Shown one piece after another: positions 7,807 to 23,980 of a stretch of 29,430 bases of DNA. The stretch comes from Nitrospinota bacterium (lineage in GTDB: Bacteria > Nitrospinota > Nitrospinia > UBA9942 > JAHJSF01), in NCBI GenBank assembly GCA_018830405.1, contig JAHJSF010000057.1, positions 1 through 29,430 on the forward strand, read 5' to 3'. The translations under genes and the position numbers were made by a program. Within the stretch, counting starts at the first letter, position 1. Every line of letters starts with the position of its first letter. The notes under the pieces were generated by a model, which saw nothing but the letters and a program-made list of their open reading frames with translations, ran no database searches and had not been told where the DNA came from.

Positions 7807-7837
7807 GATTATTAAGCTGGGAGTCTACCGCCAATCT

Positions 7838-8032
7838 AGTGTTTAGTTGCTAAGTCTGCGTTAGTACCAAGACCGAGAATTTGGTGCGGCTGGCGCGAAG
7901 ACAACCGTAGCATACAACCCCCTTATTCCCCCTTAACAAAGGGGGATAGGGGGTTGTGTAGCGAGGATTGACGACAAAGCCAGATGCGCCAAAGGCCGGT
8001 CGGCTACAGCAAGATTTAGGCAATTAAGCACT
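7838..8032 (+). repeat. Palindromic repeat family 1, copy A (195 bp)
   Basis: Non-coding element between the oxidoreductase and lpxI. Ends are imperfect inverted repeats: AGTGTTTAGTTGC on the left and, read on the other strand, AGTGCTTAATTGCC on the right. Similarity of the arms continues inward for about 75 bases, so a transcript would fold into a long imperfect hairpin. Two further copies lie at 15161-15324 (opposite orientation) and 23787-23980. Shared inner blocks include GAGAATTTGG, GCTGGCGCGAAG and AAAGGCCGGTCG. The apex holds a 44 bp palindrome at 7914-7957. No open reading frame is convincing inside. It looks like a non-autonomous mobile element (MITE or REPIN-like); no clear target duplication is visible. 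Confidence 0.88.
7914..7957. repeat. 44 bp palindrome nested at the apex of copy A
   Basis: Near-perfect inverted repeat beginning ACAACCCCCTTATTCC and ending GGATAGGGGGTTGT, with a short centre around TTAACAAA. The same sequence is found at 23862-23905 (identical) and, inverted with small changes, at 18859-18902. It is absent from the apex of the family 1 copy at 15161-15324, which has a different small hairpin there, so it is a separable unit. Confidence 0.9.
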
Positions 8033-8052
8033 ATCGAGGGGCTGAAAACAGG

Positions 8053-8862
8053 ATGAATTCAGAGATTAAGAAGGTGGGGATTGTGGCCGGAGAAGGTGCT
8101 CTCCCTATACTTATCGCCCAAGAAGTAAAAGCCAAGGGGATTGAGGTTGTCTCCATTGCCCTCTCGGATGCCATTTCCGACTCCTTGACTCCTTATTCCG
8201 ATGTCTGCCAGATTAGTGTGGGACAGATTGGGAAACTTATTAAGCTTCTCAAGGTAAAAGGGGTGACCCATGTTGTAATGGCCGGGAAGGTCAATAAGGG
8301 GGTCCTCTACAAAAAACCAAAACTCGACCTTAAGGCGATAGCCATCTTGGCCAAACTCAAGGACAGATGTGATGATACCATCCTGTTGGCCATAGTTGAT
8401 GAGATAGAGAAGGCCGGAATGAGGGTTGTTAAACAGTCTCTCTTTCTCAGACATCTTATGCCCGATAAGGGGTTGATTGCCGGAAAGAAACCGAGCCGAG
8501 TTCAGGAAGGGGATATCGAGTTTGGTTTCAGATATGCCAAGGAAATAGCCCGTCTTGATATAGGGCAGACTGTTGTCGTTAAGAATAGAGCGGTGATGGC
8601 TGTTGAGGCGATAGAGGGGACCGATGAGGCTATTAAGAGAGGGGCCGCCCTATGTGGAGAGGGGGCGGTTGTGGTCAAGGTTGAAAAACCGAGTCAGGAC
8701 CCCAGGTTTGACCTCCCGACCATAGGTCCCTCAACCGTTAGAAGTTTGGTCGAGGGGAAGGGTTCCCTTATTGCTATAGAGGCGGGGAAGACCCTCTTGG
8801 TTGAACCGGAGGAGGTTATATCAATTGCCCAAAAGGGGGGTATAACCATAATAGCCGTTTGA
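8053..8862 (+). CDS. lpxI: UDP-2,3-diacylglucosamine pyrophosphatase LpxI
   Basis: Hydrolyses UDP-2,3-diacylglucosamine to lipid X and UMP, replacing LpxH, which is not seen in this window. The 269-residue protein matches the LpxI (DUF1009) family: N-terminal domain with KVGIVAGEGALP, VMAGKVNKG (76-84), and the C-terminal catalytic domain with EAIEGTD (185-191) and KPSQDPRFDLPTIGP (212-226), whose Asp216 and Asp220 fall in the conserved metal/catalytic region. ATG 8053 is preceded by GAGGGG at 8036-8041, a slightly distant ribosome-binding site just outside repeat copy A. Repeats on both sides separate it from the upstream oxidoreductase and from lpxB. Confidence 0.95.
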   Translation: MNSEIKKVGIVAGEGALPILIAQEVKAKGIEVVSIALSDAISDSLTPYSDVCQISVGQIGKLIKLLKVKGVTHVVMAGKVNKGVLYKKPKLDLKAIAILAKLKDRCDDTILLAIVDEIEKAGMRVVKQSLFLRHLMPDKGLIAGKKPSRVQEGDIEFGFRYAKEIARLDIGQTVVVKNRAVMAVEAIEGTDEAIKRGAALCGEGAVVVKVEKPSQDPRFDLPTIGPSTVRSLVEGKGSLIAIEAGKTLLVEPEEVISIAQKGGITIIAV

Positions 8863-8907
8863 TTGTCCCGAACGAAAATAGCCGATACGCCTTTATCTCG
8901 GCCGGTC

Positions 8908-9033
8908 TATACAGAGCGTTAGAAAAAAGTAGACCGAGGCGCGACGAAGGCGAGGAGTGAGGCGTATTAAGCATACGCCGCAACGATGAGCCGAGGAGCA
9001 ACAAAGGTATACAAATTTATGTCGCTCTGTCTA
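8908..9033 (+). repeat. Palindromic repeat family 2, copy 1 (126 bp)
   Basis: Non-coding element between lpxI and lpxB. Terminal inverted repeats are TATACAGAGCG and, on the other strand, TAGACAGAGCG. The apex is the perfect hairpin GGCGTATTAAGCATACGCC. The left arm (about 60 bases, with GTAGACCGAGGCGCGACGAA) and the last 22 bases are almost identical to the element at 18794-18968 in the opposite orientation. It ends 17 bases before the lpxB start codon. Confidence 0.85.
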
Positions 9034-9050
9034 ACCTTTCTTTTCTTCAA

Positions 9051-10208
9051 ATGAAAGACACTAAAAAAAACACCTTGTTAATCATCGCCGGCGAGGATTC
9101 TGGTGATATCTACGGAGGAATGCTGGCCAAGGATATCCTTGGTCTAAACCTAAACCCCGATATAAATATTGTTGGTATCGGCGGCGAGAAGATGCGGGAG
9201 GCAGGGGTAGAACTTATCTGCGATGTCAAAGATACCGCCGTAGTAGGGGCGGTGGAGATTATCGACAAGCTCTTTTTCCTCTACCGTATCTATAGAAAAG
9301 TAGTCTCCATATTTAAATCAGGTTCTGTCGCCGGGGTTGTCCTTATTGACTACCCTGAATTCAACCTCCCCTTAGCCAGACATGCCTTTAATAATAATGT
9401 CCCTGTTTTCTACTATATAAGCCCGCAGCTATGGGCCTGGCGAAAGGGACGTATAAAGAAAATAAGGAAATATATTAAGAGGATGATGGTTATCCTCCCT
9501 TTTGAAAAGGGCTTTTATGAAGGGGAGGGGGTTGAGGTAGACTTTGTGGGGCACCCTATGGTTGACATCGTCAAGCCAACCGCCGACCGAGAGAGTTTAA
9601 AAAGGGAGCTTGATATTGTCGGAGCCTCCCCTGTCATCTCTATCCTCCCCGGTAGCAGGAAGAAGGAGGTTAGGGCCTTACTCCCTGAGCTCCTAAAGGT
9701 TGTCAGAGAATTAAAGAATAGATACCCTGAGGCGAGATTTCTCCTCCCTTTGTCTCCATCAATTGATGAACTGTTTGTCAGGCAATTTTTTTCGGGCGAG
9801 GATAGCCATCATATAAAGATACTAAATGGACGTAATTACGATCTGATGTCTGTGGCCGACCTCTTAATAACCAAGTCGGGGACGTCTACCCTTGAGGCGG
9901 CCATTATCGGTGTTCCCATGGTGATTATATATAAGACATCATTTTTCTCTATGCTTTTGGCCAAGATGTTGGTTCATATCTCTTTCGCCGGTTTGCCCAA
10001 TCTTCTGGCGGGGAAGGAGATTGTCCCGGAGTTGATACAGGATAATATGAGGAGTGATTTAATCATTAAAGAGGCGCTCTCTATTCTCGATGACCCAAGG
10101 CGTAGAGATGCTATGAAGCATGAGCTTGGTCAGGTGAGGGATACCCTTGGGGGAGGGGGGGCATCTTTAAGAGCGGCCAAAATAGTTGTTCATGGGCTAA
10201 GCCGTTAA
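9051..10208 (+). CDS. lpxB: Lipid-A-disaccharide synthase LpxB
   Basis: Family GT19 glycosyltransferase joining lipid X and UDP-2,3-diacylglucosamine to the lipid A disaccharide at the inner face of the inner membrane. The 385-residue protein begins with LLIIAGEDSGDIYGG, has PQLWAWRKGRIKKI in the middle, GSRKKEV from residue 201, and the donor-binding motif GTSTLEAAIIGVP from residue 277. Length is normal. No Shine-Dalgarno sequence is seen before ATG 9051: the 17 bases between the repeat and the start are pyrimidine-rich (CTTTCTTTTCTTCAA). The repeat has probably replaced or moved the original leader, so translation may depend on coupling or an unstructured leader. Confidence 0.96.
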   Translation: MKDTKKNTLLIIAGEDSGDIYGGMLAKDILGLNLNPDINIVGIGGEKMREAGVELICDVKDTAVVGAVEIIDKLFFLYRIYRKVVSIFKSGSVAGVVLIDYPEFNLPLARHAFNNNVPVFYYISPQLWAWRKGRIKKIRKYIKRMMVILPFEKGFYEGEGVEVDFVGHPMVDIVKPTADRESLKRELDIVGASPVISILPGSRKKEVRALLPELLKVVRELKNRYPEARFLLPLSPSIDELFVRQFFSGEDSHHIKILNGRNYDLMSVADLLITKSGTSTLEAAIIGVPMVIIYKTSFFSMLLAKMLVHISFAGLPNLLAGKEIVPELIQDNMRSDLIIKEALSILDDPRRRDAMKHELGQVRDTLGGGGASLRAAKIVVHGLSR

Positions 10209-10246
10209 CAGGGGGGCCATCTCTCAAAACATTCGGGAAACATATT

Positions 10247-10276
10247 TTGCACCTATATTATAATTTAGGATAGAAT
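10247..10276 (+). promoter_or_regulatory. Sigma70-like promoter for the DUF1844-ROK pair
   Basis: TTGCAC at 10247-10252 and TAGAAT at 10271-10276 with an 18-base spacer, in the short AT-rich gap after lpxB. It would start transcription near 10283, about 30 bases before the preferred DUF1844 start. This is a consensus reading only. Confidence 0.5.
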
Positions 10277-10312
10277 ATCGACCGTAGCATATATCTAATG
10301 CAGGAGGCCTAT

Positions 10313-10681
10313 ATGGAAGAAAAAAAAGGATTTAGCACGAACGATCGAAGAGGGACATTGGGCGATAAGTTACCTGTTGACGAGCCAGACTTCGATCTAA
10401 AGAGGGAAGAGAATCAAAAGGATAAAGGGGGGGCGATCAAGATAGATTTTTCAACCTTTATCCTATCTATGAGCAGTTCAGTCTTTTTACATTTTGGAGA
10501 GATTCCAAATCCGGAGACGGGGGTCAAGGAGAAGAATCTCCCTGTTGCTAAGCAGACTATAGATATAATTTCCATGCTTCAGGAGAAGACCAAGGGAAAC
10601 CTTAGCGACGACGAAAACAAACTCCTCGAAAATATACTCTACGAACTAAGAATGAGATATATGGAGCTGGTAAAGGCTTAG
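10313..10681 (+). CDS. DUF1844 domain protein
   Basis: Small protein of unknown function, 122 residues from ATG 10313. I prefer this start to ATG 10298 because AGGAGG at 10302-10307 sits five bases before it. The charged, probably disordered N-terminus (about 1-45, with many K, E and D) is followed by the DUF1844 domain: FSTFILSMSSSVFLHFGEIP, then NLPVAKQTIDIISMLQEKTKGNLSDDE and a C-terminal helix ending ELRMRYMELVKA. The helical domain has no signal peptide or membrane segment, so a cytoplasmic location is likely. Relatives are widespread in Deltaproteobacteria and other Gram-negative phyla, often near envelope genes. It is probably cotranscribed with the ROK kinase 47 bases downstream. Confidence 0.88.
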   Translation: MEEKKGFSTNDRRGTLGDKLPVDEPDFDLKREENQKDKGGAIKIDFSTFILSMSSSVFLHFGEIPNPETGVKEKNLPVAKQTIDIISMLQEKTKGNLSDDENKLLENILYELRMRYMELVKA

Positions 10682-10728
10682 TCCCTGTTAGAGACGAGTA
10701 GAATAACCGAATCAACGGCGGAATTTTT

Positions 10729-11652
10729 ATGGGCGATTTACTGGTGAAATATTTCATAGGCCTAGATGTCGGGGGAACAAATATTCGGGGGGGGGCTGTT
10801 TCCGCCGAAGGGAAGATACTTTACAAGTCTAAGATGGCGACCAATGTAAGCCGCGGGCGCCAAGAGGTTGCCGACAACATACTTGCCCTTACCCATTCTA
10901 TAGTTTCCTATATAAAAACCCCTCCTTCGGCGATAGGGATTGGGGTGGCCGGTCTTATCCGGGGGGAGGAAGGGATAATCGCCGAGTCCCCCAATTTTCC
11001 CGATTGGATTGAATATGATCTAAAAACCCCTTTGGAAAAGGCCCTTAAGCTCAAGGTTGTTGTTGAAAACGACGCCAATGCGGCCGCTATCGGGGAAGGA
11101 TGGCTTGGTGCCGGGGCCGGAGAGAAAAACTTTTGTCTCCTGACACTCGGCACAGGGATAGGAGGGGGAGTATTTTTAGGGGGAAAGATCTGGAGAGGGG
11201 TTGACGGGATGGCCGGAGAATTGGGGCATATAAATATACACCCTGAGGGGCGGAGGTGCGGCTGCGGAAATCGGGGCTGTCTTGAGCAGTACGCCTCGGC
11301 TCAGGGGATTATTAAAAGTTATCAAGGGCGCCGGCCCGTAAAAGGAGAATTTAGTGCCAAGGAGATATTCAATTTGGCTGCCAAGGGGAATGGAGAAGCG
11401 ATAGATATATTGAGAGGGGTTGGCTCCTCTCTCGGCATTGCCATTACCGACCTTGTAAATATATTAAATGTCAGACTTTTTATAATCGGTGGCGGCGTAG
11501 CCGGTGCCTGGGACTATTTTATAGAACCGCTTAAGGGGGAGATTGCCGAACGGGCCTACAAGGTAACCGGTGATAATGTCCGAATAAATAAGGCTATTTT
11601 GGGGGATGATGCCGGTATGATGGGGGCCGCCCGATTGGCCATGGGTAATTAG
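10729..11652 (+). CDS. ROK-family sugar kinase (glucokinase-like)
   Basis: Phosphorylates a hexose, most likely glucose, using ATP. The 307-residue protein has the actin-like ATPase phosphate loop FIGLDVGGTNIRGG, the ENDANAAAIGE segment with the catalytic Asp, the GELGHINI motif, and the ROK zinc signature CGCGNRGCLEQYAS. The start could be ATG 10729 (weak GGCGGA upstream) or GTG 10744, which gives the common beginning VKYFIGLDVGG. A run of nine G residues at 10787-10795 lies inside codons 20-22. With the alpha-glucan phosphorylase at 21783-23777 it fits use of glucose released from glycogen, but N-acetylmannosamine or GlcNAc kinases share these motifs. Confidence 0.9.
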   Translation: MGDLLVKYFIGLDVGGTNIRGGAVSAEGKILYKSKMATNVSRGRQEVADNILALTHSIVSYIKTPPSAIGIGVAGLIRGEEGIIAESPNFPDWIEYDLKTPLEKALKLKVVVENDANAAAIGEGWLGAGAGEKNFCLLTLGTGIGGGVFLGGKIWRGVDGMAGELGHINIHPEGRRCGCGNRGCLEQYASAQGIIKSYQGRRPVKGEFSAKEIFNLAAKGNGEAIDILRGVGSSLGIAITDLVNILNVRLFIIGGGVAGAWDYFIEPLKGEIAERAYKVTGDNVRINKAILGDDAGMMGAARLAMGN

Positions 11653-11672
11653 CTTCTCTTAATGAAACCTAG

Positions 11673-12221
11673 CTAAAGTTTAGCCAATACCCCCTTATTT
11701 ACCTCGGCCACCTTGCCTGGTCCGAGGAGAAGTTCTAATATCTTGAAGGCGAATTCCATGGCCGTTCCCGGGCCTCTGCTTGTCACCATATTGCCGTCGA
11801 CTACAACCCGTTCTTCCGAATAGACTGCTTCTTTAAACTCCTTACTGAAGGAGGGGTGGCTGGTGAGTCTCTTCCCCTTGGTTAGCCCCAAGACAGATAA
11901 TATGGTTGGGGCAGCACAGATGGCCGCGATAAGTTTCCCCTCAGAATGGTGTCTTTTAACTAGATCAGCCACGCGCTGATCTCTCTTTAGGTTCTCTGTT
12001 CCTTCTGCACCTCCCGGCAATATAATCGCTTCGTAATTCCTGTTTAGGCTGATATCTATGGCTTCATCCGTCAAGACCATTATTCCGCACCGCCCCTTGA
12101 TGGGGCCATCAATAGTGCCAGCCAAGGTTACCTCTATTCCTCCCCTGCGTAATATATCTACGGCGGTTAGGGCCTCGATATCTTCAAAACCGGGGGCCAA
12201 AATCACAAGAGCTTTCTTCAT
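11673..12221 (-). CDS. DJ-1/PfpI family protein
   Basis: Cytoplasmic DJ-1/ThiJ superfamily protein, related to YajL and DJ-1, which act in protein and metabolite damage control (glyoxalase or deglycase activity is debated). The 182-residue product has KKALVILAPGFEDIEA with the conserved Glu16, and the nucleophile elbow AAICAAP with Cys102. Together these make the expected DJ-1 active site. It is read on the minus strand, probably after the HAD gene, and converges with the ROK kinase (20-base gap). The 15 bases before ATG contain no Shine-Dalgarno sequence; a palindromic repeat begins 18 bases upstream and may have altered the leader. Confidence 0.92.
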   Translation of the reverse strand: MKKALVILAPGFEDIEALTAVDILRRGGIEVTLAGTIDGPIKGRCGIMVLTDEAIDISLNRNYEAIILPGGAEGTENLKRDQRVADLVKRHHSEGKLIAAICAAPTILSVLGLTKGKRLTSHPSFSKEFKEAVYSEERVVVDGNMVTSRGPGTAMEFAFKILELLLGPGKVAEVNKGVLAKL

Positions 12222-12238
12222 CTTTTATACGAAGTCGC

Positions 12239-12338
12239 ATTCAAACGCTAACTGTGTTGGCTTCGTCGTCAGCTCCTCGACATACCAACCAGTATGTCTG
12301 TGTCGCTTCCTCCTTGCCGCCTTGTTATTATTTTGAAT
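12239..12338 (-). repeat. Palindromic repeat family 3 (100 bp)
   Basis: Element between the HAD and DJ-1 genes. Ends are ATTCAAA and TTTGAAT. The apex is a perfect 7 bp stem GACATAC/GTATGTC with loop CAACCA (12279-12298). The inner arm, on the minus strand, contains GAGGAGCTGACGACGAAGCC, closely matching GAGGATTGACGACAAAGCC in family 1. Only one copy is in the window, so repeat status rests on this resemblance and its architecture. It overlaps the last three codons and stop of the HAD gene. Confidence 0.65.
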
Positions 12339-13035
12339 ACAATTCCGTATATTCCTCCATGTCTTTAATATCGGGAAACCATTCTGAAAAGTTAAACTCC
12401 TCCAAAGAGTTCAATACAATATCTGCCTTGGTGAACTGGCCGATGTCTATCCCCAGGCTGCTGTCGGGAATGGCTACTGTCTTCATGCCGGCTGCGATGG
12501 CTGCCTCTACCCCTATCGGCGAATCTTCAAAAACGAGGCAGTTAGCCGGCTCGGCCCCTAGCCTGGCTGCCGCCAATAAAAATATGTCGGGGGCCGGTTT
12601 CCCTCGATGTAGTTCTTTGTCGTCTCCCGTTATGATTGCATCGAACAGGTCAAACCACTCCTTATGATGCCCTGTTTTCAGGGCGTAGTTTTCTCTACTA
12701 GTACTGGTGGCGACCGCCTGTCTTATTCCCAGAGATTTCCCCTGGCCGGTAATCTCTTTGGCCCCAGGTCTAGGTTTCGAGGTTGGGAATAGTTTGAGAA
12801 GTATTTCTCCCCTCATTTCAAGATATTCTTTCGGGGTGATTGGGAGGGCCAATGCCTCGACCAATATCTTGGCCGACACCTCTGCCCTTCGTCCCATCAT
12901 CTTTACCTTGAGGGAGGGGGCAAACTCCTTGCCGAATCTGGCCGTTACTTCTTGGGCGGCTATGGTATAGAATGGCTCTGTATCGAGGAGGAGACCATCC
13001 ATGTCGTATATGATATGCGTAATTTTTTTGGGCAA
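12328..13035 (-). CDS. HAD-superfamily phosphatase, pseudouridine-5'-phosphatase-like
   Basis: Haloacid-dehalogenase-family hydrolase, probably dephosphorylating a small phosphorylated metabolite. The 235-residue protein has motif I YDMDGLLLDTEP (nucleophile Asp11, acid/base Asp13), a helical cap domain (about 18-85), motif II ATSTSR, motif III lysine in HRGKPAPDIF and motif IV VFEDSPIGVEAA. The cap and the stretches MGRRAEVS, KTGHHKEWFDLFD and LVFEDSPIGVEAA resemble eukaryotic PUDP/HDHD1 pseudouridine-5'-phosphatase more than generic beta-phosphoglucomutase, but specificity is inferred. The start is TTG at 13035, supported by GGAG eight bases upstream. The stop codon lies in the end of repeat family 3. 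Confidence 0.85.
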   Translation of the reverse strand: MPKKITHIIYDMDGLLLDTEPFYTIAAQEVTARFGKEFAPSLKVKMMGRRAEVSAKILVEALALPITPKEYLEMRGEILLKLFPTSKPRPGAKEITGQGKSLGIRQAVATSTSRENYALKTGHHKEWFDLFDAIITGDDKELHRGKPAPDIFLLAAARLGAEPANCLVFEDSPIGVEAAIAAGMKTVAIPDSSLGIDIGQFTKADIVLNSLEEFNFSEWFPDIKDMEEYTELYSK

Positions 13036-13172
13036 CTTTTATTCTCCAAATATATTTGTTCAATCTTTATGTTAGCATAAAAGGCCGGTTGGGGCCCCCG
13101 ATTTATGGCCAGAGACATCTTTTCTTACTTTTCTTGCCTATGGGGGGACTTATTTGATAGATTGTAAAAATC

Positions 13173-13751
13173 ATGATTGATCTAATTATCAAATACGACC
13201 GCCTTCTTTTTTTGGCTATCAATAACGGGCTTGCCAATAGGGCCAACGATATCCTCTTGGGAGGATTTACCCTAGCCGGTTATGCCTACTTTCTGATCCC
13301 TGTCGCCTTTCTATATCTCTTCATAATAGATAGGGAGAGATTTAGAACTAATACAATCTATTTTATCTTAACCCTCATCGTTGGTGCCCTGCTTGTCCAG
13401 TCAATAAAGATAGGAGTCGGCAGGCCGCGTCCCCTTAAAGATATGGAGCCGTTGCTTCTGGCCGGAAAGATCCATATCCACAACCTCTTTTATCCTCTAA
13501 AAGAGAACTCTTTCCCCTCAGGGCATACCCAATTGGCCTTTACTGTAGCTACCTTTTTGGCTATGGTTAATAGGCGGGATGCCTTTTATCTCTTTCTCAT
13601 GGCCTTCCTGATTGGGCTATCAAGGATATATGTGGGGGCTCATTATCCCCTTGATGTCCTTAGCGGGGCGATAGTCGGATCGCTGGCATCTTTTGTCGTC
13701 GTCAAATTATCCAAAATAGAAAACAAAATATCTAAAGGGAGTAAGTTATGA
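13173..13751 (+). CDS. PAP2-family membrane phosphatase
   Basis: Integral inner-membrane phosphatase of the PAP2/BacA-independent type, likely acting on undecaprenyl pyrophosphate or another lipid phosphate with its active site toward the periplasm. The 192-residue protein has about five to six hydrophobic segments and all three PAP2 motifs: KIGVGRPRP, FPSGH and SRIYVGAHYPLD (the His and Asp relay). Length is typical of a single-domain enzyme. Near the ATG no clear ribosome-binding site is seen. The stop overlaps the transaldolase start as ATGA, an unexpected operon partner. Confidence 0.92.
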   Translation: MIDLIIKYDRLLFLAINNGLANRANDILLGGFTLAGYAYFLIPVAFLYLFIIDRERFRTNTIYFILTLIVGALLVQSIKIGVGRPRPLKDMEPLLLAGKIHIHNLFYPLKENSFPSGHTQLAFTVATFLAMVNRRDAFYLFLMAFLIGLSRIYVGAHYPLDVLSGAIVGSLASFVVVKLSKIENKISKGSKL

Positions 13752-14968
13752 ATGGTAAATGGGATGACCTTATACATGATATTGCCGTATTGGGCCATGT
13801 AAGCGGCAAGCTGCACCAAGGGGAGGAGAGTGAGGTCCTTGAAAAACTTCTCAACACAGGGAGCCGCCTATGGATGGATACCGGCGATAGAGATCTGGCC
13901 CTGTCTCTCTGGAAGAAGGAGATATCGGCCCTGACCACTAATAATACCTTGGCCAATCAGGTTGTTCAGAGCGGTGTTATGGATGCCGATATTGAGTCGG
14001 CCCTTAAAAGGATAAGAAAAGAGGCCCCTGACATCTCCGAGGAGGAGTTGATTACGGAGATCGGTTTTATAATTAACTGTAAGATTGCCCTGAGGCTGGT
14101 TACAACCTTTGGGAAGAAGGTGAGTGTCGAGCTCCACCCCTCCATGTCTCGAGATATAGAGAAGAGTCTTCACTATGCTCGAAGATACTACAAGGTAAAT
14201 CCCGAACATTTTATTATAAAGGTTCCTCTAACTCCTGAAGGATATTTGGTAGTTAGGCGGCTCTCCAAGGAGGGGATTCCGACCAACTTTACCCTCGGTT
14301 TTTCGGCTCGGCAAAATTATTTGGCAGCCAGATTGGCCAACCCTACCTATGTGAATGTTTTCCTGGGAAGACTTAATGCGGTTGTCTCTGACAATGGTCT
14401 TGGTTCGGGGGACTATGTCGGGGAAAGGGTGACCATAGCAACCCAGAGGGTATTAAATGGACTTAAAAAAAGAAATCCGAAGGTAGGGACATCCCTTATA
14501 GCGGCCAGTGTCCGCAATGGGCAGCAGGTTCTGGATTTGGCAGGGGTTGATGTGTTGACTATTCCGCCAAAGTCCTTTGGAGAACTCTATAATTCCGAAA
14601 CATCTTCGGGAAAAATTTCGTCCAAGTTGGAGGAGGTCTGTCCGGCAGGGATAGATTCCCCCGATAGATTTGCCCCCCTTTGGGAGGTAGATGAAAGATT
14701 TGTAAGTTTTGTTGATACCCTTTTAGGTGAAAATCCTGATAGTATGAATGGGGAAGGCTTGTTGAAGGTATGCCGAGAGAGCAATATAAACCTGTTTTAT
14801 CCTTTCAGCTCGGAGGAGATACAGTCTATAAAGGATAGGGGGAAAATTCCTAGGTTGAGTGATTGGAACGAGGATGTGGCCATTGATGACCTTATGACAG
14901 CGTCGGCCCTACTCTCCTTTACAACCGATCAGGCAGCCTTAGATAAGAGAATAAAGGGGTTTATATAG
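13748..14968 (+). CDS. tal: Transaldolase-family protein
   Basis: Class I aldolase fold, predicted to exchange dihydroxyacetone units between sugar phosphates in the pentose phosphate pathway. The 406-residue protein has LWMDTGDRDLALSLW (41-55), LTTNNTLANQVVQSG, VSVELHPSMSRD, then IIKVPLTPEG with the Schiff-base Lys158, and TLGFSARQNYLAARLANPTYVNVFLGRLNAV. It is longer than E. coli TalA/B (about 317) because of an extended C-terminal region (about 290-406) after the barrel core, more like the longer transaldolase groups. ATG overlaps the PAP2 stop by four bases. The gene ends only five bases from the 3' end of the converging tRNA-Val gene. Confidence 0.88.
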   Translation: MNGKWDDLIHDIAVLGHVSGKLHQGEESEVLEKLLNTGSRLWMDTGDRDLALSLWKKEISALTTNNTLANQVVQSGVMDADIESALKRIRKEAPDISEEELITEIGFIINCKIALRLVTTFGKKVSVELHPSMSRDIEKSLHYARRYYKVNPEHFIIKVPLTPEGYLVVRRLSKEGIPTNFTLGFSARQNYLAARLANPTYVNVFLGRLNAVVSDNGLGSGDYVGERVTIATQRVLNGLKKRNPKVGTSLIAASVRNGQQVLDLAGVDVLTIPPKSFGELYNSETSSGKISSKLEEVCPAGIDSPDRFAPLWEVDERFVSFVDTLLGENPDSMNGEGLLKVCRESNINLFYPFSSEEIQSIKDRGKIPRLSDWNEDVAIDDLMTASALLSFTTDQAALDKRIKGFI

Positions 14969-14973
14969 AAGAT

Positions 14974-15048
14974 TGGTGGGCGGTACTGGGATCGAACCAG
15001 TGGCTTCCACCGTGTGAAGGTGGCACTCTCCCGCTGAGTTAACCGCCC
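14974..15048 (-). tRNA. tRNA-Val (anticodon CAC)
   Basis: Read on the minus strand the 75-base gene folds as a standard cloverleaf: acceptor GGGCGGT/ACCGCCC, anticodon stem CCACC/GGTGG with loop TTCACAC (anticodon CAC, reading GTG), T arm ACTGG-TTCGATC-CCAGT, and a genomically encoded CCA tail. It follows tRNA-Ala by 32 bases and is probably cotranscribed with it. Confidence 0.97.
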
Positions 15049-15080
15049 TTATTTATCTATAAAAAGGGGCATTCTGAGAA

Positions 15081-15156
15081 TGGTGGAGCAGATCGGGATC
15101 GAACCGACGACCTCGTCGTTGCGAACGACGCGCTCTCCCAACTGAGCTACTGCCCC
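15081..15156 (-). tRNA. tRNA-Ala (anticodon CGC)
   Basis: On the minus strand the 76-base gene has acceptor GGGGCAG/CTGCTCC with the alanine identity wobble pair G3:U70, D arm GCTC-AGTTGGGA-GAGC, anticodon stem CGTCG/CGACG with loop TTCGCAA (anticodon CGC, reading GCG), T arm GTCGG-TTCGATC-CCGAT and encoded CCA. Palindromic repeat family 1 copy B ends four bases upstream of its 5' end. Confidence 0.97.
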
Positions 15157-15160
15157 GACG

Positions 15161-15324
15161 AGTGCTTAATTGCCTAAATCTTGCTGTAGTCGACCGGCCT
15201 TTGACGCGCCTGGCTTTGTTGTCAATCCTCGCCATAGGCTTTAAGCTATGGCTGCGGTTGCCTTCGCGCCAGCCACGCCAAATTCTCGCTCTTGGTACGG
15301 CGCAGACTTAGGCAACTAAACACT
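15161..15324 (-). repeat. Palindromic repeat family 1, copy B (164 bp)
   Basis: Same element as 7838-8032 and 23787-23980, in the opposite orientation. On the minus strand it starts AGTGTTTAGTTGCC and ends GGCAATTAAGCACT. This copy lacks the 44 bp nested palindrome; its apex is the small hairpin CATAGCTTAAAGCCTATG. It is therefore the simplest and possibly ancestral form. It lies between a near-consensus promoter and tRNA-Ala. Confidence 0.88.
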
Positions 15325-15332
15325 GGTAGTTT

Positions 15333-15361
15333 ATAATAGAGATATATATTTAGATTGTCAA
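15333..15361 (-). promoter_or_regulatory. Strong sigma70-like promoter of the tRNA-Ala/tRNA-Val operon
   Basis: On the minus strand TTGACA (15361-15356), a 17-base spacer and TATTAT (15338-15333) form an almost perfect sigma70-type promoter. Transcription would begin near 15326, one or two bases before the first base of the family 1 repeat at 15324, so the tRNA precursor would carry the repeat as a leader of about 165 nt. Confidence 0.75.
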
Positions 15362-15462
15362 CTTATTGCCTTTTGGGGTCTTAGGTAGGCAATTTTCAGC
15401 TAAAGGTGTGTTGGATATAGGCCGATTGTCGTAAAGATTGAAATTTATAAGGGTATTTATAG

Positions 15463-17343: not shown

Positions 17344-17513
17344 GAGGAGAGCCCTGCCTTAGCCTTCAACAACCGGATATGTTCATCATCCGGCTTCCGG
17401 CTTCCGTATAATCCCACTGTGCATCGCCTTAGGTTGGTATATTATGCCGTTCAAATCTGTCATAATTTAAACATTTGATTGTTTTGACAGAGGAAAGATA
17501 TTTGGAGAAATCT

Positions 17514-18764
17514 ATGAAAATCTTAATTGTAGGTAACGGAGGACGCGAGCATGCCCTTGTTTGGAAGGCATCCCTTAGTCCGCTGGTTGATAAGATTTAC
17601 TGTACCCCTGGTAATCCCGGTACCGCCGAGTTGGCCGAAAATATAGATATAGCCGTCGAAGATATTGAGGCCCTGGCCGACTTTTCCCTGAAGAATAGGA
17701 TTGACCTGACTATTGTCGGTCCCGAAGTCCCCCTTACCCTAGGGATTGTTGACAGGTTTGAAGAGAGAGGCTTGGCTATCTTTGGGCCTTCCAAATTGGG
17801 GGCAGAACTTGAGGGGAGTAAGGTCTTTTCTAAAAACTTTATGAAAAAATATGGCATTCCAACTGCCGCCTCGGAGATCTTTGTCTCGGCCGACAAGGCC
17901 AAGGAATATATAAAATCAGTCAATCTTCCCTTGGTTATTAAAGCAGACGGCTTAGCTGCCGGTAAGGGGGTTGTTATATGCCACAAGATTGAGGAGGCCT
18001 TCGAGGCTGTAGATACGATCCTCCTTGATAGGCAGTTTGGTTCCGCTGGGGATAAAATATTGGTTGAGCAGTTTTTGGATGGGGTTGAGGTCTCCTTCAT
18101 GGTTTTATCGGATGGCCAAGACTTTATTCCCTTGGTAACCGCCAAAGACCATAAACCTGTCTATGACGGAAATAAGGGACCCAATACCGGCGGCCTGGGG
18201 GCCTATGCCCCATCTCCAACCGTTACCCCGGAGCTTATGAAGAAGATAATAGAGAGGGTTATAAGGCCTACCATAGACGGCCTAGCCTCTGAAGGGAGAC
18301 TTTATAGGGGGGTTATCTATGCCGGACTGATGATATGTGACGGTGAGCCTGTGGTCCTCGAGTATAACTGCCGCTTTGGAGACCCTGAGACACAGCCTAT
18401 CATGTTCAAAATGAAAGGGGACATTATCCCACCAATGGTCAAGATTGCCGCCCACCAGAGCATTAAGGGGCTTGATATTGAATGGCACGAGGGTTATACC
18501 GTTTGTATTGTTATGGCCTCAGGTGGATATCCTGGAGCATACGAGAAGGGGAAGGTAATCAGCGGGCTTGATGATGTTGGGGGGGGAGTTGTCTTTCAGG
18601 CCGGGACCAAATTATCAGGTAAGAATATTGTAACCAATGGGGGGCGTGTCTTGGGGGTTACATCCCGAGGGGCCACCCTTGCGGAGGCCTCAGATAACGC
18701 CTATAAAATTGTTAGTAAAATAAGCTGGGACGGTCTCCACTACAGGAGAGATATAGGGAGATAA
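17514..18764 (+). CDS. purD: Phosphoribosylamine-glycine ligase PurD
   Basis: Second step of purine synthesis: joins phosphoribosylamine and glycine with ATP. The 416-residue cytoplasmic protein has the N-terminal signature MKILIVGNGGREHAL, the ATP-grasp core (VIKADGLAAGKGV, LVEQFLDGVEVSFMVLSDG), the family signature NTGGLGAYAP and the metal-binding LEYNCRFGDPETQP. I chose ATG 17514, with GGAG seven bases upstream, rather than an in-frame start 39 bases earlier, because family members begin at this methionine. A run of eight G residues lies at 18579-18586. No other purine gene is adjacent. It converges on yidC with a palindromic repeat between. Confidence 0.97.
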   Translation: MKILIVGNGGREHALVWKASLSPLVDKIYCTPGNPGTAELAENIDIAVEDIEALADFSLKNRIDLTIVGPEVPLTLGIVDRFEERGLAIFGPSKLGAELEGSKVFSKNFMKKYGIPTAASEIFVSADKAKEYIKSVNLPLVIKADGLAAGKGVVICHKIEEAFEAVDTILLDRQFGSAGDKILVEQFLDGVEVSFMVLSDGQDFIPLVTAKDHKPVYDGNKGPNTGGLGAYAPSPTVTPELMKKIIERVIRPTIDGLASEGRLYRGVIYAGLMICDGEPVVLEYNCRFGDPETQPIMFKMKGDIIPPMVKIAAHQSIKGLDIEWHEGYTVCIVMASGGYPGAYEKGKVISGLDDVGGGVVFQAGTKLSGKNIVTNGGRVLGVTSRGATLAEASDNAYKIVSKISWDGLHYRRDIGR

Positions 18765-18793
18765 CTGGTGGCCCCTCAGGCCATCTCCCTAAC

Positions 18794-18968
18794 TAGACAG
18801 AGCGACATAAATTTGGTTCATCGTGTTTAGGCTTCATTTATCCCCGGCTCGTCGATATACAACCCCCTATCCCCCTTTGTTAAGGGGGAATGAGGGGGTT
18901 GCATAAAAATACGCCTCACTCCTCGCCTTCGTCGCGCCTCGGTCTACTTTTTTCTGCCGCTCTGTATA
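18794..18968 (-). repeat. Palindromic repeat family 2, copy 2 (175 bp)
   Basis: Same family as 8908-9033, opposite orientation. On the minus strand the left arm from TATACAGAGCG through GGCGAGGAGTGAGGCGTAT is almost identical, and the right end CAAATTTATGTCGCTCTG matches, but the right inner arm has diverged and the apex carries the 44 bp palindrome. It fills the gap between the converging purD and yidC genes and ends eight bases before the yidC stop codon. Confidence 0.85.
18859..18902. repeat. 44 bp palindrome nested at the apex of family 2 copy 2
   Basis: Inverted version of the palindromes at 7914-7957 and 23862-23905, with a few substitutions (for example TGAGGGGG instead of TAAGGGGG). 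Located between convergent genes, its GC-rich stem could also stop transcription in both directions, though no T run follows. Confidence 0.88.
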
Positions 18969-18975
18969 AACAGCC

Positions 18976-20580
18976 TTACCGAGACATCTTTCTCTGAACA
19001 TAATATTGCTGGGCGATGGTGAGTATATTGTTAACCATCCAGTACAATATCAAACCGGCCGGGAATTTGAGGAATAGGAAGGTCATGACGACCGGCATAA
19101 GGAGCATTATCTTGGCCTGCGAAGAATCACCACCGGTTGGAGAAGGGGTCATCTTCTGCTGAAAGAACATGGTAATACCCATAAGTACCGGGGTTATGTA
19201 GTATGGATCCTTCATCGAAAGGTCTGTAATCCAGAAGAAGAATGGAGCATGTCTTAGTTCAATAGCACTTAGAAGTACCTTATACAATCCGAAGAAGACG
19301 GGAATCTGTATTACGGTAGGAAGGCACCCTCCCATAGGATTGACCTTATGTTCCTTATAAAGCTTCATAGTCTCTGCATTAAGGGCAGTTTTATCGTTCT
19401 TGTATCTCTCCTGAAGCATCTTAATGTGGGGTTGTAGCTTCTGCATTCTATGCATAGAAGCGAATCCCTTATCCGATAGACGGTAAAAGACAAGCTTTAT
19501 AAGAATGGTCAAGATGATAATGGCTACCCCATAGTTGTGGACATAAGAATTTATATTAACAAGAACCCAAAAGAGAGGTTTAGCAATAAAATCAAACCAG
19601 CCGTAATTTATAATCTTATGGAGGGATAAATCGTGGTACCTTTTTAGGGTTGCCTCGTGTCGCGGCCCCACATATACCCTTATGTTGGCTGTTTCCCCCC
19701 GGCCTGTTTTCAGGCGGAGGGCAATCTCTTGGCTCTCCTTGGTAATAGTTTTGGCGACGCCGATGGCTCCTTCATTAACAGGAATAAGCGCGGCCATAAA
19801 ATATTTATCCTGCATGGCAATCCATTCAAGCTTTTCCTCATATAGCTTCGCCTCCCCCTCGTTTTTAGGGGTCTTGGTGATAAGCTTACCGTCGGCCATC
19901 ATGGTTGGACCGGTATATATGTATTTTGTTTTTGGGCCACTTGTCAAAGATGTGTTCCAAATAATATCCCCGGTTACTTCCCCAAAGGTGTTTTGAGTAT
20001 CAAGAATGGAGACGGATGAGTCAAACATATAGTCTCCGTAACTGAAGCTATAGGTTTTATTGACCACCACTCCGGACTTATCTTTATAGGAGAAGGAGGC
20101 GGTAACCTTGCTGTCATTAGGGGATAGGACTATATTTTCTTTGGTTAAATCGCCGAGGGCATAGTTGGAATTATTTATCCTTTTATTGAGGGCCTCGCTG
20201 GCATAGTTTATAAGGAGAGGATAATCTTCTTCACTGGTGGCATGTATCAGCTCTAACTTGGAGCCATCCTTGTTCTTGTAATCGTTAAGGAGAATGGATG
20301 CTATTCGGCCGCCCCTATTGGTTAATTTAATCTCTGCCTTGCCGGTATCTATGGTGATAATCTTTTCCGCTATGTTTTGATCGAGGGTAAGTTTGTCCGC
20401 GGCTGTTCCCTCTTTTCCAGAGATATCCTCGCTGTTGATATCTTTTTCCGAGGCTGTCGGTGTATTCTCAGTTGCCGTTTGAGTTACTTCCTGAGGGGGC
20501 ATATTCTTCTCAGCAAAGTATTGAAATCCCATAAAGACAAGGATTGATAGTACTACGGCCAAAAATGCTCTTTTTTCCAT
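18976..20580 (-). CDS. yidC: Membrane protein insertase YidC
   Basis: Oxa1-family insertase that places membrane proteins into the inner membrane, alone or with SecYEG. The 534-residue protein has an N-terminal membrane anchor (about 5-22), a linker rich in T, E and S, a large periplasmic beta domain (about 70-330, including VLSPNDSKVTASFSYKD and KYIYTGPTMMADGKL) and the C-terminal five-segment Oxa1 core (about 345-530). Core landmarks are LFWVLVNINSYVHNYGVAIIILT, the cytoplasmic coiled-coil loop MHRMQKLQPHIKMLQERYKND and PMGGCLPTVIQIPVFFGLYKVL. Length and layout are typical of Gram-negative YidC. It is the last gene of the rpmH-rnpA-yidD-yidC unit; jag and mnmE do not follow. Confidence 0.97.
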   Translation of the reverse strand: MEKRAFLAVVLSILVFMGFQYFAEKNMPPQEVTQTATENTPTASEKDINSEDISGKEGTAADKLTLDQNIAEKIITIDTGKAEIKLTNRGGRIASILLNDYKNKDGSKLELIHATSEEDYPLLINYASEALNKRINNSNYALGDLTKENIVLSPNDSKVTASFSYKDKSGVVVNKTYSFSYGDYMFDSSVSILDTQNTFGEVTGDIIWNTSLTSGPKTKYIYTGPTMMADGKLITKTPKNEGEAKLYEEKLEWIAMQDKYFMAALIPVNEGAIGVAKTITKESQEIALRLKTGRGETANIRVYVGPRHEATLKRYHDLSLHKIINYGWFDFIAKPLFWVLVNINSYVHNYGVAIIILTILIKLVFYRLSDKGFASMHRMQKLQPHIKMLQERYKNDKTALNAETMKLYKEHKVNPMGGCLPTVIQIPVFFGLYKVLLSAIELRHAPFFFWITDLSMKDPYYITPVLMGITMFFQQKMTPSPTGGDSSQAKIMLLMPVVMTFLFLKFPAGLILYWMVNNILTIAQQYYVQRKMSR

Positions 20581-20624
20581 TTTTTATATCGAGTTTAAAG
20601 ATTATTATTACGGTTTATTACCTG

Positions 20625-20657
20625 ATAGGGGTATATTTGCTCTACCTCTACCCCTAT
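20625..20657 (-). other. Inverted repeat between yidD and yidC
   Basis: Perfect 9 bp inverted repeat ATAGGGGTA (20625-20633) and TACCCCTAT (20649-20657) with a 15-base loop. One arm covers the yidD stop codon. It could form a hairpin in the operon mRNA that tunes yidC expression relative to rnpA, or protect the 3' end. There is no T run, so it is not a classical terminator. Confidence 0.4.
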
Positions 20658-20863
20658 TTGAGGGGATCGTATCCCCCCTCACAAAAGGGATGACACCTTA
20701 TCAATCTTTTTATCCCTAAATATACCCCCTTTGTGGCACCATATTTTTTTACCGCCTCCTCCATGTAGCTTGAGCAGGTCGGGGTGAATCTACAGGAAGG
20801 GGGCAAAATAGGTGAAATGAGAGTCTTATAAATTCTTATTAAAGCTATAATTATACGTTTCAT
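20654..20863 (-). CDS. yidD: Membrane protein insertion efficiency factor YidD
   Basis: Small amphipathic inner-membrane-associated protein that helps YidC/Sec insertion. The 69-residue product shows the complete family signature: an N-terminal amphipathic helix ([18 protein letters not shown]), [19 protein letters not shown] and [13 protein letters not shown] with three conserved cysteines. It starts three bases after the rnpA stop, in the universally conserved rnpA-yidD-yidC order. Confidence 0.96.
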
Positions 20864-20866
20864 CCC

Positions 20867-21223
20867 TTATTTGCCAGGTTGGAGGTGATGAAAGGAATCA
20901 AGGGCCTCAAAAAAAGAATCTTTCAGCTCTTGATAACTTCTGTCCCTAAAAGAAGGGGAGAGTATAAGAAGAATATCCCCAACCGGAATTGCCTCTTTGT
21001 TTTTTCTAAAGATGTCCCGAAAGAATCTCTTCCCCCTGTTCCTGAAGACGGCATTGCCAACCTTACGCGAGGCGATTATTCCCAGTCTTCTATGGCCGCC
21101 TCCTCTGGGGATAAAATAGATGGAAAAAGGCTCTCTTCTTATCTTTTTCCCCTCTCTGAAGATTTGCTGAAAATCATCTTTTTTGACTATTCTCTCATCC
21201 CTGCAAAATCCTTCTCTGCTCAT
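20867..21223 (-). CDS. rnpA: Ribonuclease P protein component RnpA
   Basis: Protein subunit of RNase P, which matures the 5' ends of tRNAs together with the rnpB RNA (not in this window). The 118-residue basic protein has the family start pattern ERIVKKDDFQQIFREGKK and the RNA-binding RNR motif region FRNRGKRFFRDIFRKN, then DILLILSPSFRDRSYQELKDSFFEAL. Normal size. ATG at 21223 is preceded only by a weak GAG. It follows rpmH by 68 bases. Confidence 0.96.
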   Translation of the reverse strand: MSREGFCRDERIVKKDDFQQIFREGKKIRREPFSIYFIPRGGGHRRLGIIASRKVGNAVFRNRGKRFFRDIFRKNKEAIPVGDILLILSPSFRDRSYQELKDSFFEALDSFHHLQPGK

Positions 21224-21291
21224 AATTGCTCTAAGAAATTATCCGAGTTTGCGAGGATATTAAAGGGGTGGCGGCGGTATCCCCGTGTCTC

Positions 21292-21441
21292 CTATAGGCG
21301 AGAATCGGAAACGGTCAGGGTCTTTCTTCCCTTGGCTCTTCTTCTGGACAGTATAGCCCTTCCGGAACTGGTAGACATTCTGTGGCGAAAGCCATGCTTC
21401 CTCGCCCTTTTTTTATTCTTCGGTTGGTAAGTCCTTTTCAT
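21292..21441 (-). CDS. rpmH: 50S ribosomal protein L34
   Basis: Short basic protein of the large ribosomal subunit, 49 residues: [18 protein letters not shown], then [20 protein letters not shown] and a tail ending [10 protein letters not shown]. The match to L34 is unmistakable, with a C-terminus a few residues longer than in E. coli. ATG 21441 is preceded by a strong AGGAAGGA ribosome-binding site. It opens the rpmH-rnpA-yidD-yidC operon behind a good promoter. The usual upstream neighbour dnaA is absent. Confidence 0.97.
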
Positions 21442-21508
21442 CTGATCCTTCCTAAAACTTAAATATATTGAAAGTAAACTATCTGATTTGCTAAAATCAT
21501 AAGCATGA

Positions 21509-21538
21509 ATAGTACCTTAACAATCGCCACTAAGTCAA
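21509..21538 (-). promoter_or_regulatory. Sigma70-like promoter of the rpmH operon
   Basis: On the minus strand TTGACT (21538-21533), an 18-base spacer and TACTAT (21514-21509). Transcription would start near 21502, giving a leader of about 60 nt before rpmH. The position and near-consensus boxes fit a strongly expressed ribosomal-protein operon. Confidence 0.65.
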
Positions 21539-21665
21539 GTAAAAATAAGGGATAGAGGTGTGCTGGTCCCTCCCCCCTTATTCATAATAATATCTATAAT
21601 CCCCCAAGTTGTAACATGATAGACTGCTAAAACTAAATAAATTGTGCCTATTTTGTTTGGCTGGT

Positions 21666-21694
21666 TTGATAAATCTGATTTTTGCTAATATTGT
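21666..21694 (+). promoter_or_regulatory. Candidate distal promoter for the alpha-glucan phosphorylase
   Basis: TTGATA (21666-21671), 17-base spacer, TATTGT (21689-21694). The region is AT-rich, so chance matches are likely. Confidence 0.35.
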
Positions 21695-21715
21695 TATGGA
21701 TAGCTATCGCTCATC

Positions 21716-21744
21716 TTGATATAGTCCCCTTATATTTATATTAA
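21716..21744 (+). promoter_or_regulatory. Candidate proximal promoter for the alpha-glucan phosphorylase
   Basis: TTGATA (21716-21721), 17-base spacer, TATTAA (21739-21744), about 39 bases before the start codon. Alternative to or tandem with the site at 21666-21694. Confidence 0.35.
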
Positions 21745-21782
21745 GAGTTATTATCCATATTGATTCGAAAAGAGAGCTGAGC

Positions 21783-23777
21783 ATGCCTGCAAGAAATCCT
21801 TTACATATAAGCCCGGAGGAAGAGCGGAAGAAAAGGGAAAGTGGTTGTATAAACGATGACCACTTTTTTGGTTTTCCCGCTAATCCCGTGTTGGAGGCTG
21901 AAAAAGTACTGCAATCATCGGGCACCAAATCTGTGGCCTACTTTTCAATGGAGTTTGGCCTTGCCCCGAGCATATACAATGCGTTCGAATGTCATAACGG
22001 CGTAGACGAGAGAAATTTTGTAAAGCCGCAGGAAGTTTTTTCCAATATGAGGGCGATGGACTATTATCACCTTCTAAAGTTTGGCAATCTTATTGATTTA
22101 CCTATCTACAGCGGCGGCCTTGGTGTTTTAGCCGGGGATATGCTCAAATCGGCGGCCGATTTGGGGGTATCAATGGTTGGGGTGGGAGTCCTCTGGAACA
22201 AAGGGTACTTCAAGCAGCGTTTATGGTACAAGTATGGACAGGTACCGGAGGAAACAAGGTGGGATCCATACAGCTACCCGGGACTAGTCTTAACGGATCG
22301 TTCGGTCAAGGTTCGTTGCTGCAACGAGGATATTACCCTTCGCATCTGGCTCTATCCGGTCTATAGCCATGATCAAAAACATGTGGTCCCCCTCATTCTT
22401 CTCGATTCAGACTGCCCGGAAAACGGAGAGAGAGAGAGGCAGATAACCGATCAGCTCTACCGTAGCGACAGCCTCTGGTGGAAGATTGTTCAGAGGGTTG
22501 TCCTGGGGATGGGGGGGATTAAGGCCCTTGACGCCCTTGGTTATTCGATAGACAAGTATCATATGAACGAGGGGCACGCCGCCTTTTCCTTCATCGAGAG
22601 GTTGTCGGGCGTAAAGGAGAAAGACATTGCCAAGCTGAAGGAGTCATTCTGTTATACCTGCCATACTCCGGTTAAGGCCGGACATGATATTTTGGGGTTA
22701 AATGAGCTGTTGTATGTTTTTGACGAGAAAATTCTGAAGGAGATCAGGGATTATGGTGCAGAGCCGGGTAATAAGGAGGTGGTTAACCTGACACGCCTGG
22801 CCATCAATAGTTCCGGCAGTGTGAATGCAGTTGCTAAGAAGCATGGAGCGATTACCCGACTGCAATTCCCCGAATATGCGGACAAGATACAATCTGTGAC
22901 CAATGGGGTCCATACCTTTACCTGGATAACAGAACCTATTGCCCAACTACTCGATAAATATTCGGAGACTATAGGCGACTGGAGAAGAGACCCAAAACTT
23001 CTCACAAATGTTCGCAAAATGATAAATGACCTCCCATTTAGGCACGCCCTATTTGAGGCGCATCAGGATAACAAGAGACACCTTATCAGTTTCTTCAAGC
23101 ACTGGTTTCTGAAGGAGAACGTTTTTACCCTTTCTTGGGCCAGAAGAATAGCCCCTTATAAGAGGCCCGGCCTCATACTCTCAGATCCGGAACGTCTTGT
23201 CGATATTGCCAGGAGGATAGGGCCTATCCAGATACTTATGGCCGGGAAGGCACACCCTAATGACATACCTGCCTTCCGCTTTATTAACGATATAATGGAC
23301 AAGATAGATAAGCTTGAGCCTGAGAATAAACTCTTAAAGATAATACTCCTTGAAAACTACGATACGCGTCTCGGTAAGCTGTTGACCGGCAGTGTAGACC
23401 TTTGGCTTAATACCCCCCTCCCCCCATTTGAGGCCTCAGGCACAAGCGGCATGAAGGCTATTATGAACGGTGTGGTTCAGTTGAGTTCCCTGGACGGCTG
23501 GGTTGTCGAGGCGGATAAGAGGATAGGGCGTATATTTGGCCATATCCTGCCTGAGGGGGAGATAGGAGATGATGAAGATTTGAAGATAGAGGGGGATTCT
23601 ATAGAACTGTACGATAATCTGGAGGAGCTAGTCGGTCTATACTACGCCAGAGAAGAGAAGGAGTCAGTTATGCGCTCTGAGTGGGTTGATATGATGATTC
23701 ACTGTGTGGCTGAGGCAGGCTTCTTTAATGCGCATCGTATGGCCGAGGAGTATAGAGAAAAGATATGGAAGTTCTGA
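21783..23777 (+). CDS. glgP: Alpha-glucan phosphorylase (GT35, short bacterial type)
   Basis: Releases glucose 1-phosphate from glycogen or maltodextrin with phosphate and pyridoxal phosphate, in the cytoplasm. The 664-residue protein is shorter than classical GlgP (about 800-840) and matches the alpha-glucan family phosphorylase group. It has VAYFSMEFGLAPSIYNAFE, the glycine-rich YSGGLGVLAGDMLKSAADLG, KYHMNEGHAAF with the catalytic-region histidine, FTLSWARRIAPYKRP (phosphate-binding Lys460/Arg461) and the PLP site EASGTSGMKA with Lys558. The motifs look intact. ATG 21783 has only a weak purine-rich site upstream. With the ROK kinase it suggests storage-polysaccharide use; no other glycogen gene is in the window. 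A family 1 repeat begins ten bases after its stop. Confidence 0.93.
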   Translation: MPARNPLHISPEEERKKRESGCINDDHFFGFPANPVLEAEKVLQSSGTKSVAYFSMEFGLAPSIYNAFECHNGVDERNFVKPQEVFSNMRAMDYYHLLKFGNLIDLPIYSGGLGVLAGDMLKSAADLGVSMVGVGVLWNKGYFKQRLWYKYGQVPEETRWDPYSYPGLVLTDRSVKVRCCNEDITLRIWLYPVYSHDQKHVVPLILLDSDCPENGERERQITDQLYRSDSLWWKIVQRVVLGMGGIKALDALGYSIDKYHMNEGHAAFSFIERLSGVKEKDIAKLKESFCYTCHTPVKAGHDILGLNELLYVFDEKILKEIRDYGAEPGNKEVVNLTRLAINSSGSVNAVAKKHGAITRLQFPEYADKIQSVTNGVHTFTWITEPIAQLLDKYSETIGDWRRDPKLLTNVRKMINDLPFRHALFEAHQDNKRHLISFFKHWFLKENVFTLSWARRIAPYKRPGLILSDPERLVDIARRIGPIQILMAGKAHPNDIPAFRFINDIMDKIDKLEPENKLLKIILLENYDTRLGKLLTGSVDLWLNTPLPPFEASGTSGMKAIMNGVVQLSSLDGWVVEADKRIGRIFGHILPEGEIGDDEDLKIEGDSIELYDNLEELVGLYYAREEKESVMRSEWVDMMIHCVAEAGFFNAHRMAEEYREKIWKF

Positions 23778-23786
23778 TTCTTCCCT

Positions 23787-23980
23787 GGTGTTTAGTTGCA
23801 TAAGTCTGCGTCAGTAACAAGACCGAGAATTTGGCGAGGCTGGCGCGAAGACAACCAACGCACAACCCCCTTATTCCCCCTTAACAAAGGGGGATAGGGG
23901 GTTGTATATTGAGGATTGACAACAAAGCTAGACGCGCCAAAGGCCGGTCGACTATAGCAAGGTTTAGGCAATTAAGCACT
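23787..23980 (+). repeat. Palindromic repeat family 1, copy C (194 bp)
   Basis: Close copy of 7838-8032 in the same orientation, including the nested 44 bp palindrome at 23862-23905. Its first base has changed (GGTGTTTAG instead of AGTGTTTAG). It fills the 201-base gap between the converging phosphorylase and glycosyltransferase genes. Its last two bases overlap the glycosyltransferase stop codon. Confidence 0.88.
23862..23905. repeat. 44 bp palindrome nested at the apex of copy C
   Basis: Identical to 7914-7957. It sits at the same apex position of the family 1 element and lies between convergent genes, where its stem could act as a bidirectional transcription barrier. Confidence 0.9.

Follow-up and report, generated by a model that had tools for sequence, protein, structure and literature searches.

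A short palindromic repeat at the hairpin tips of three repeat families in a Nitrospinota draft genome

HAIRPIN ELEMENTS IN THE WINDOW

The window analyzed here, a stretch of 29,430 nucleotides, forms contig 23 of a draft genome of 1.42 Mb that comprises 185 contigs and is an estimated 87% complete. The closest matches of the protein encoded by its lpxI gene share about 50% identity with it and come from Nitrospirota and related bacteria. Hairpin elements of three families, called F1, F2, and F3 here, are distributed along the window, and some of them carry at their tip a 44-bp imperfect palindrome, which we call U. On the forward strand, an F1 element with U (element, 7837 to 8033; U, 7914 to 7957) lies between an oxidoreductase gene and lpxI, and an F2 element without U (8908 to 9033) lies between lpxI and lpxB, with its native tip hairpin, GGCGTAT-TAAGC-ATACGCC, at 8961 to 8979. 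On the reverse strand is an F3 element without U (12227 to 12350), in which the tip stem GACATAC/GTATGTC belongs to the native hairpin GACATAC-TGGTTG-GTATGTC (12279 to 12298). A HAD-family gene (12328 to 13035) runs at its 3' end into this element, which provides the last residues and the stop codon. Also on the reverse strand are an F1 element without U (15160 to 15325), which adjoins tRNA-Ala and has its native hairpin, GCCATAG-loop-CTATGGC, at 15231 to 15252, and an F2 element with U (18794 to 18968). The U of the latter (18859 to 18902) has a TCAT variant on its left and appears in reverse orientation on the forward strand. Finally, an F1 element with U on the forward strand (element, 23786 to 23981; U, 23862 to 23905) has a phosphorylase gene on one side and, on the other, a convergently oriented gene for a glycosyltransferase.

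The first-pass annotation had placed U within larger palindromes at 7914, 18859, and 23862, and all of its coordinates are correct and the palindromes real. In the folded strands, 59 base pairs close over U at 7914, 49 at 23862, and 30 at 18859, and the fold energies are all far lower than those of shuffled sequences (z scores of -11.3 at 7914, -8.1 at 23862, and -4.4 at 18859). The same annotation described the F1 copy next to tRNA-Ala and the F2 copy between lpxI and lpxB as lacking U and ending in small hairpins of their own, which is borne out. It recognized two palindrome families, F1 and F2, and both stand; the third host family, represented by the element at 12227 to 12350, had been overlooked. 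Its argument that three out of three occurrences lie at a hairpin apex holds for their placement; the three cannot be counted as independent, since they are copies from families that have been amplified.

ANATOMY OF THE UNIT

U has the structure ACAACCCCC-TTAT-TCCCCCTTAACAAAGGGGGA-TA-GGGGGTTGT, in which two stems are nested: an outer one formed by ACAACCCCC and GGGGGTTGT and an inner TCCCCC/GGGGGA hairpin with the loop TTAACAAA. REP sequences of the GTAG/CGTC class bear an unpaired motif at one end of a palindrome of 20 to 40 bp. The copies of U that we read end in ACAACCCCC and GGGGGTTGT with no GTAG or CGTC tag, and U is thus not a member of that class. Nor is it a known RNA family, as evidenced by an Rfam search at gathering scores that matched two tRNAs in the window and neither U nor any of the hairpin elements.

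Some units contain several cores. Four U cores stand in tandem with a 34-base period inside a single outer stem at C39:1668-1790 (L080), and units with two to three cores linked by a spacer of the CTCTGCTAAAAT type occur on C143, C33, and C2 (L184, L197, and L272, respectively), which suggests internal duplication of the core. In one related genome (G007; L363, L365, and L366), pairs of U-like cores lie in opposite orientation about 57 bases apart, possibly as a separate composite repeat.

HOST FAMILIES

In genome searches, F1, F2, and F3 each yielded about 40 copies or more; the copy counts derive from genome-wide searches together with retrieved stretches of sequence. In each family the ends are complementary, numerous mismatches in the stem are conserved, and the native tip is a short hairpin (GCCATAG-N6-CTATGGC in F1, GGCGTAT-TAAGC-ATACGCC in F2, and GGCATAC-N6-GTATGTC in F3). 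F1 copies are about 90% identical to one another, and F1 and F3 resemble each other next to the tip (GAGGA..TGACGACRAAGCC). Double changes that preserve pairing between the arms exceeded all 200 shuffles in every family, with 36 pairing-preserving cells against a shuffled maximum of 24 in F1, 52 against 30 in F2, and 22 against 9 in F3. Among copies from across the genome, the stems contain more G.T pairs than A.C mismatches (174 to 39 in F1, 45 to 20 in F2, and 73 to 10 in F3). This excess is only a hint of constraint on one transcribed strand, since the choice of the consensus pair biases the ratio in the same direction.

The families resemble miniature inverted-repeat elements (MITEs) in being small (124 to 197 bp), noncoding, and dispersed, with terminal inverted repeats or stems. 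TA is frequent at the ends of F2 and F3, and a clear duplication is absent in F1. No parent transposon with F1, F2, or F3 ends was noticed in 327 kb of sequence, and none of the three families was found in 40 to 80 related genomes. A search for transposases linked to U or to F1 through F3 likewise found none in this 87%-complete genome. Its single RAYT-like Y1 transposase gene (L249, 1465 to 2316) is flanked by inverted GGTCAGGTCTTGCA/TGCAAGACCTGACC ends that are unrelated to these repeats, and we therefore rejected both movement driven by this enzyme and REPIN status.

OCCUPANCY OF HAIRPIN TIPS

The U core was sought across the 1.42-Mb genome as a pattern with up to three mismatches, independently of the host families, and tips were scored by arm homology and by flank complementarity under mild mismatch costs, as harsh costs missed most of the imperfect palindromes. 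Of 63 core sites, 36 cap a larger imperfect palindrome, 10 have a single arm, and 17 stand alone, figures that describe nonindependent events because the host families have been amplified. The tip sites consist of 14 in F1, 3 in F2, 11 in F3, 5 in one-armed F3 copies, and 3 in F3 shells that lack the inner arms. For the exact TTAT subtype, 28 of 34 sites are at tips and 2 are armless. The comparison with random positions that the first-pass annotation had called for gives a clear separation: flank complementarity exceeds the 95% level of random positions at all 15 U-bearing F1 tips and at 10 of the 11 F3 tips tested, versus 1 of 17 stand-alone copies.

The situation in relatives is different. 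U and its core are present in genomes of the same order as well as in a further family of the class, mostly as stand-alone copies, and most of the 92 U sites in related genomes lie outside larger palindromes. The outcome that the first-pass annotation named as refuting, most copies outside larger palindromes, is therefore not seen in this genome but is seen in its relatives. Because U is mostly solitary there, we conclude that it predates its association with tips and that this association is not obligatory. Some of the sites in relatives are nevertheless central in palindromes that do not belong to F1, F2, or F3. At L225 and L230, palindromes of the CACAAAGGCACAAAG type hold U or its core at or close to their center (P = 0.002 and 0.001, respectively), central placement is weaker in the TCTCGTAAAA type at L234 (P = 0.022), and the core alone is central in the GGCACTTCCAAAAACTC type at L297, L369, and L281 (P = 0.01 to 0.03, uncorrected). 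A virus-borne origin was rejected, as 2.9 million viral contigs contained no match to the full U pattern and one match to the core.

JUNCTIONS AND ORIENTATION

Filled and empty members align over the whole of both arms, which excludes the concern that they might be unrelated sequences. The F1 segment bounded by GCCATA and TATGGC (G-N6-C) has been exchanged for U flanked by an apical stem, and in F3, the GGCATAC-N6-GTATGTC tip has been replaced in the same way. No remnant of the native loop persists in any filled F1 copy or in the F3 copies read, and no duplication was seen at the U junctions when filled and empty copies were aligned. The junctions sought by the first-pass annotation are thus those of a loop that was replaced, not split, in F1 and F3. 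For these reasons, simple insertion is disfavored, and we set aside the idea that U is a clean transposable insertion with a target duplication. Filled F2 copies are of two types: in the C74/C177 type, the right outer stem of U is missing, and the apical stem survives together with part of the loop on one side; in the C71/C50 type, the apical stem has been replaced by a new, symmetrical one. Symmetry of the apical stem is not found in every filled copy.

U occurs in both orientations in all three families (13:3 in F1, 3:2 in F2, and 21:10 in F3, the last including one-armed forms). In near-complete F1 copies, insertions of at least 8 bases are located at the tip. Collapsed tips (C85, C120, C113, and C164) and one-armed F3 copies are also present, and hence tips and arms are lost as well.

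TIP AND ARM ANCESTRY

A tree of 43 F1 copies, 15 of them bearing U, was built from about 25 variable arm sites, with the tip excluded; recombination violates the assumptions of such trees, and the results should be read with this in mind. Grouping the 15 U-bearing copies in one clade is rejected (P = 9.6e-9), and across bootstrap trees the state of U must change 11 to 15 times, as often as when the labels are shuffled. When arm sites were tested on trees built without the site in question and its pairing partner, 8 of 20 gave a clear signal (0 to 2 of 100 shuffles as low), while U on the same test gave none (73 of 100 shuffles as low). The association of F1 arm sites with U is strong solely inside the apical stem and fades just beyond it. 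The presence of U in F1 is thus independent of arm ancestry, which supports the separate evolution of tip and arms. Exchange may extend past the tip, since other F1 arm sites are also free of signal. For F3, a single U-bearing clade is not rejected (P = 0.11).

Correlation between left and right arms was dropped as proof of vertical descent because paired columns covary. Confined to unpaired columns, left-right linkage is weak in F1 (P = 0.02) and clear in F2 (P = 0.002). Support for exchange comes from the F2 element at 18794 to 18968. Over its left 32 bases, identity is 97% with the C74 type and 75% with the C71 type; over its right 34 bases the order is reversed, with 94% for the C71 type against 65% for the C74 type. 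The switch of parent falls within the U core. This element is clearly a mosaic of two U-bearing F2 types. The modular exchange of apices that had been raised as one of two readings of the window gains support from this copy and from the assortment of U apart from the arms.

HOW THE TIPS MAY HAVE BEEN FILLED

We lean toward a reading in which U is an old, dispersed, noncoding palindromic repeat, solitary in related genomes, that would have been captured in this lineage by three MITE-like hairpin families peculiar to it, taking the place of the short native loops at their tips. It would then have spread from copy to copy as a tip module, with the arms uninvolved, when hairpin tips recombined or replication switched templates there. 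Inverted tips, symmetrical apical stems, mosaics, and one-armed forms would all be products of this one process. Template switching between inverted repeats is reported to homogenize their arms and flip the spacer between them (PMC8604942) and to build or mend hairpin stems (PMC8794818), effects that match the symmetrical stems, the two orientations of U, and the mosaic copy. We infer the enzymatic route, the direction of change, and the precedence of capture over spread from these patterns.

The other reading put forward for the window was a mobile unit that targets hairpin loops. U might, for example, be an active, tiny, nonautonomous element served by a trans-supplied transposase with a preference for hairpin loops or cruciform tips. 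Such an element would account for the presence of U at the tips of three families, the central U or core in unrelated palindromes of relatives, both orientations, the scatter of U over the F1 tree, and the location of F1 insertions. However, strict targeting of loops is at odds with the 17 solitary copies in this genome and with most of the copies in relatives, as well as with the replaced loops and the lack of target duplication. Moreover, the sole Y1/RAYT-type transposase has unrelated terminal repeats, and the mosaic F2 copy is better explained by exchange. This reading is possible but doubtful, and it is less supported than capture followed by exchange. Plain gene conversion, in which U arrived once per family and was spread by conversion tracts with the hairpin playing no special part, draws on the F1 identity, which suffices for recombination, the F1/F3 similarity beside the tip, and the mosaic F2 copy. 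Yet the association with U is strong only within the apical stem and fades just beyond it, a shorter span than ordinary conversion tracts would leave, and orientation flips and one-armed forms are not predicted, which makes this route improbable.

We consider it very unlikely that U inserted at random and that only elements with tip insertions remained functional or mobile and were amplified. The arms covary to maintain pairing, so that arm insertions should be purged, and stand-alone copies exist at many sites, as this reading expects; neither the replacement of the loop nor the independence of U from F1 arm lineages would follow from it. The data come from one draft genome in which the repeats are close to the limits of assembly. 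Many of its contigs are short, several terminate in F1-, F2-, or F3-type repeats, and the arms and U are on the scale of read length; individual chimeric copies could thus be assembly errors. That a short-read metagenome assembly fused the arms and tips of different copies throughout is scarcely credible, given more than 30 filled tips with distinct unique flanks on both sides, consistent in-register junctions, and a central U in other palindromes of independent genomes. Beyond the capture and exchange that we favor, U might even be among the smallest known mobile units, moving by a structure-specific swap of extruded hairpin tips whatever the stem sequence, an extension that we think rather unlikely.

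The broader question for the field is how bacterial palindromic repeats originate, nest, and diversify. Here, filled and empty members coexist in three families and the tip behaves as a module that changes apart from the arms, and tip exchange is therefore directly testable in a plasmid assay. Composite repeats and new hairpins could be assembled in this way.

COMPARISON WITH KNOWN SYSTEMS

Cyanobacterial small dispersed repeats (SDR), reportedly described by Elhai et al. in 2008, are very small noncoding repeats nested in other repeats, and U is like them in being tiny, noncoding, and nested. SDR5 inserts within the HIP1 octamer (cited in PMC4390886), whereas the sites of U are hairpin tips. 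The pneumococcal BOX, RUP, and SPRITE elements (PMC10969869) are also small, clustered repeats inserted in one another, but we found no description of replacement at hairpin tips across families for them.

Several insertion sequences target REP palindromes, including ISPsy8, ISPa11, ISPpu9, ISPpu10, ISRm19, and ISRm22 (PMC1525189). They share with U the recurrence of a mobile unit in palindromic repeats; however, they are complete elements with a transposase, whereas U is about 44 bp, noncoding, and loop replacing. REPINs and their RAYT transposases (PMC3116915) present the same picture of dispersed hairpins with conserved ends, a variable center, and compensatory changes. The ends differ, no linked RAYT was found in this genome, and the center here is a module that recurs across families. 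Template switching at quasi-palindromes (PMC8604942 and PMC8794818) homogenizes arms and inverts spacers in a manner that matches the stems and orientations of U, but it has been described for short local changes and not for the spread of a tip module among dispersed families.

A further likeness is to REPs that lie inside longer palindromes in three species, in two of which empty palindromes are absent, as reported by Di Nocera et al. (PMC3733652). These REP dimers (GTAG-15 in A. variabilis, GTAG-23 in T. roseum, and CGTC-1 in H. neapolitanus) are, like U, short palindromes within longer ones and present in many copies per genome (PMC3733652). U differs in having no GTAG or CGTC tag. A search of the literature for the U core sequence or for loop insertion of repeats found nothing. 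Furthermore, A. variabilis and H. neapolitanus yielded no insert-free palindromes (PMC3733652), whereas matched empty elements exist here in three families, and occupancy was tested here against arm ancestry. What appears to be new is that a single unit caps several families for which matched empty counterparts exist, and that the uncoupling of tip from arms has been tested.
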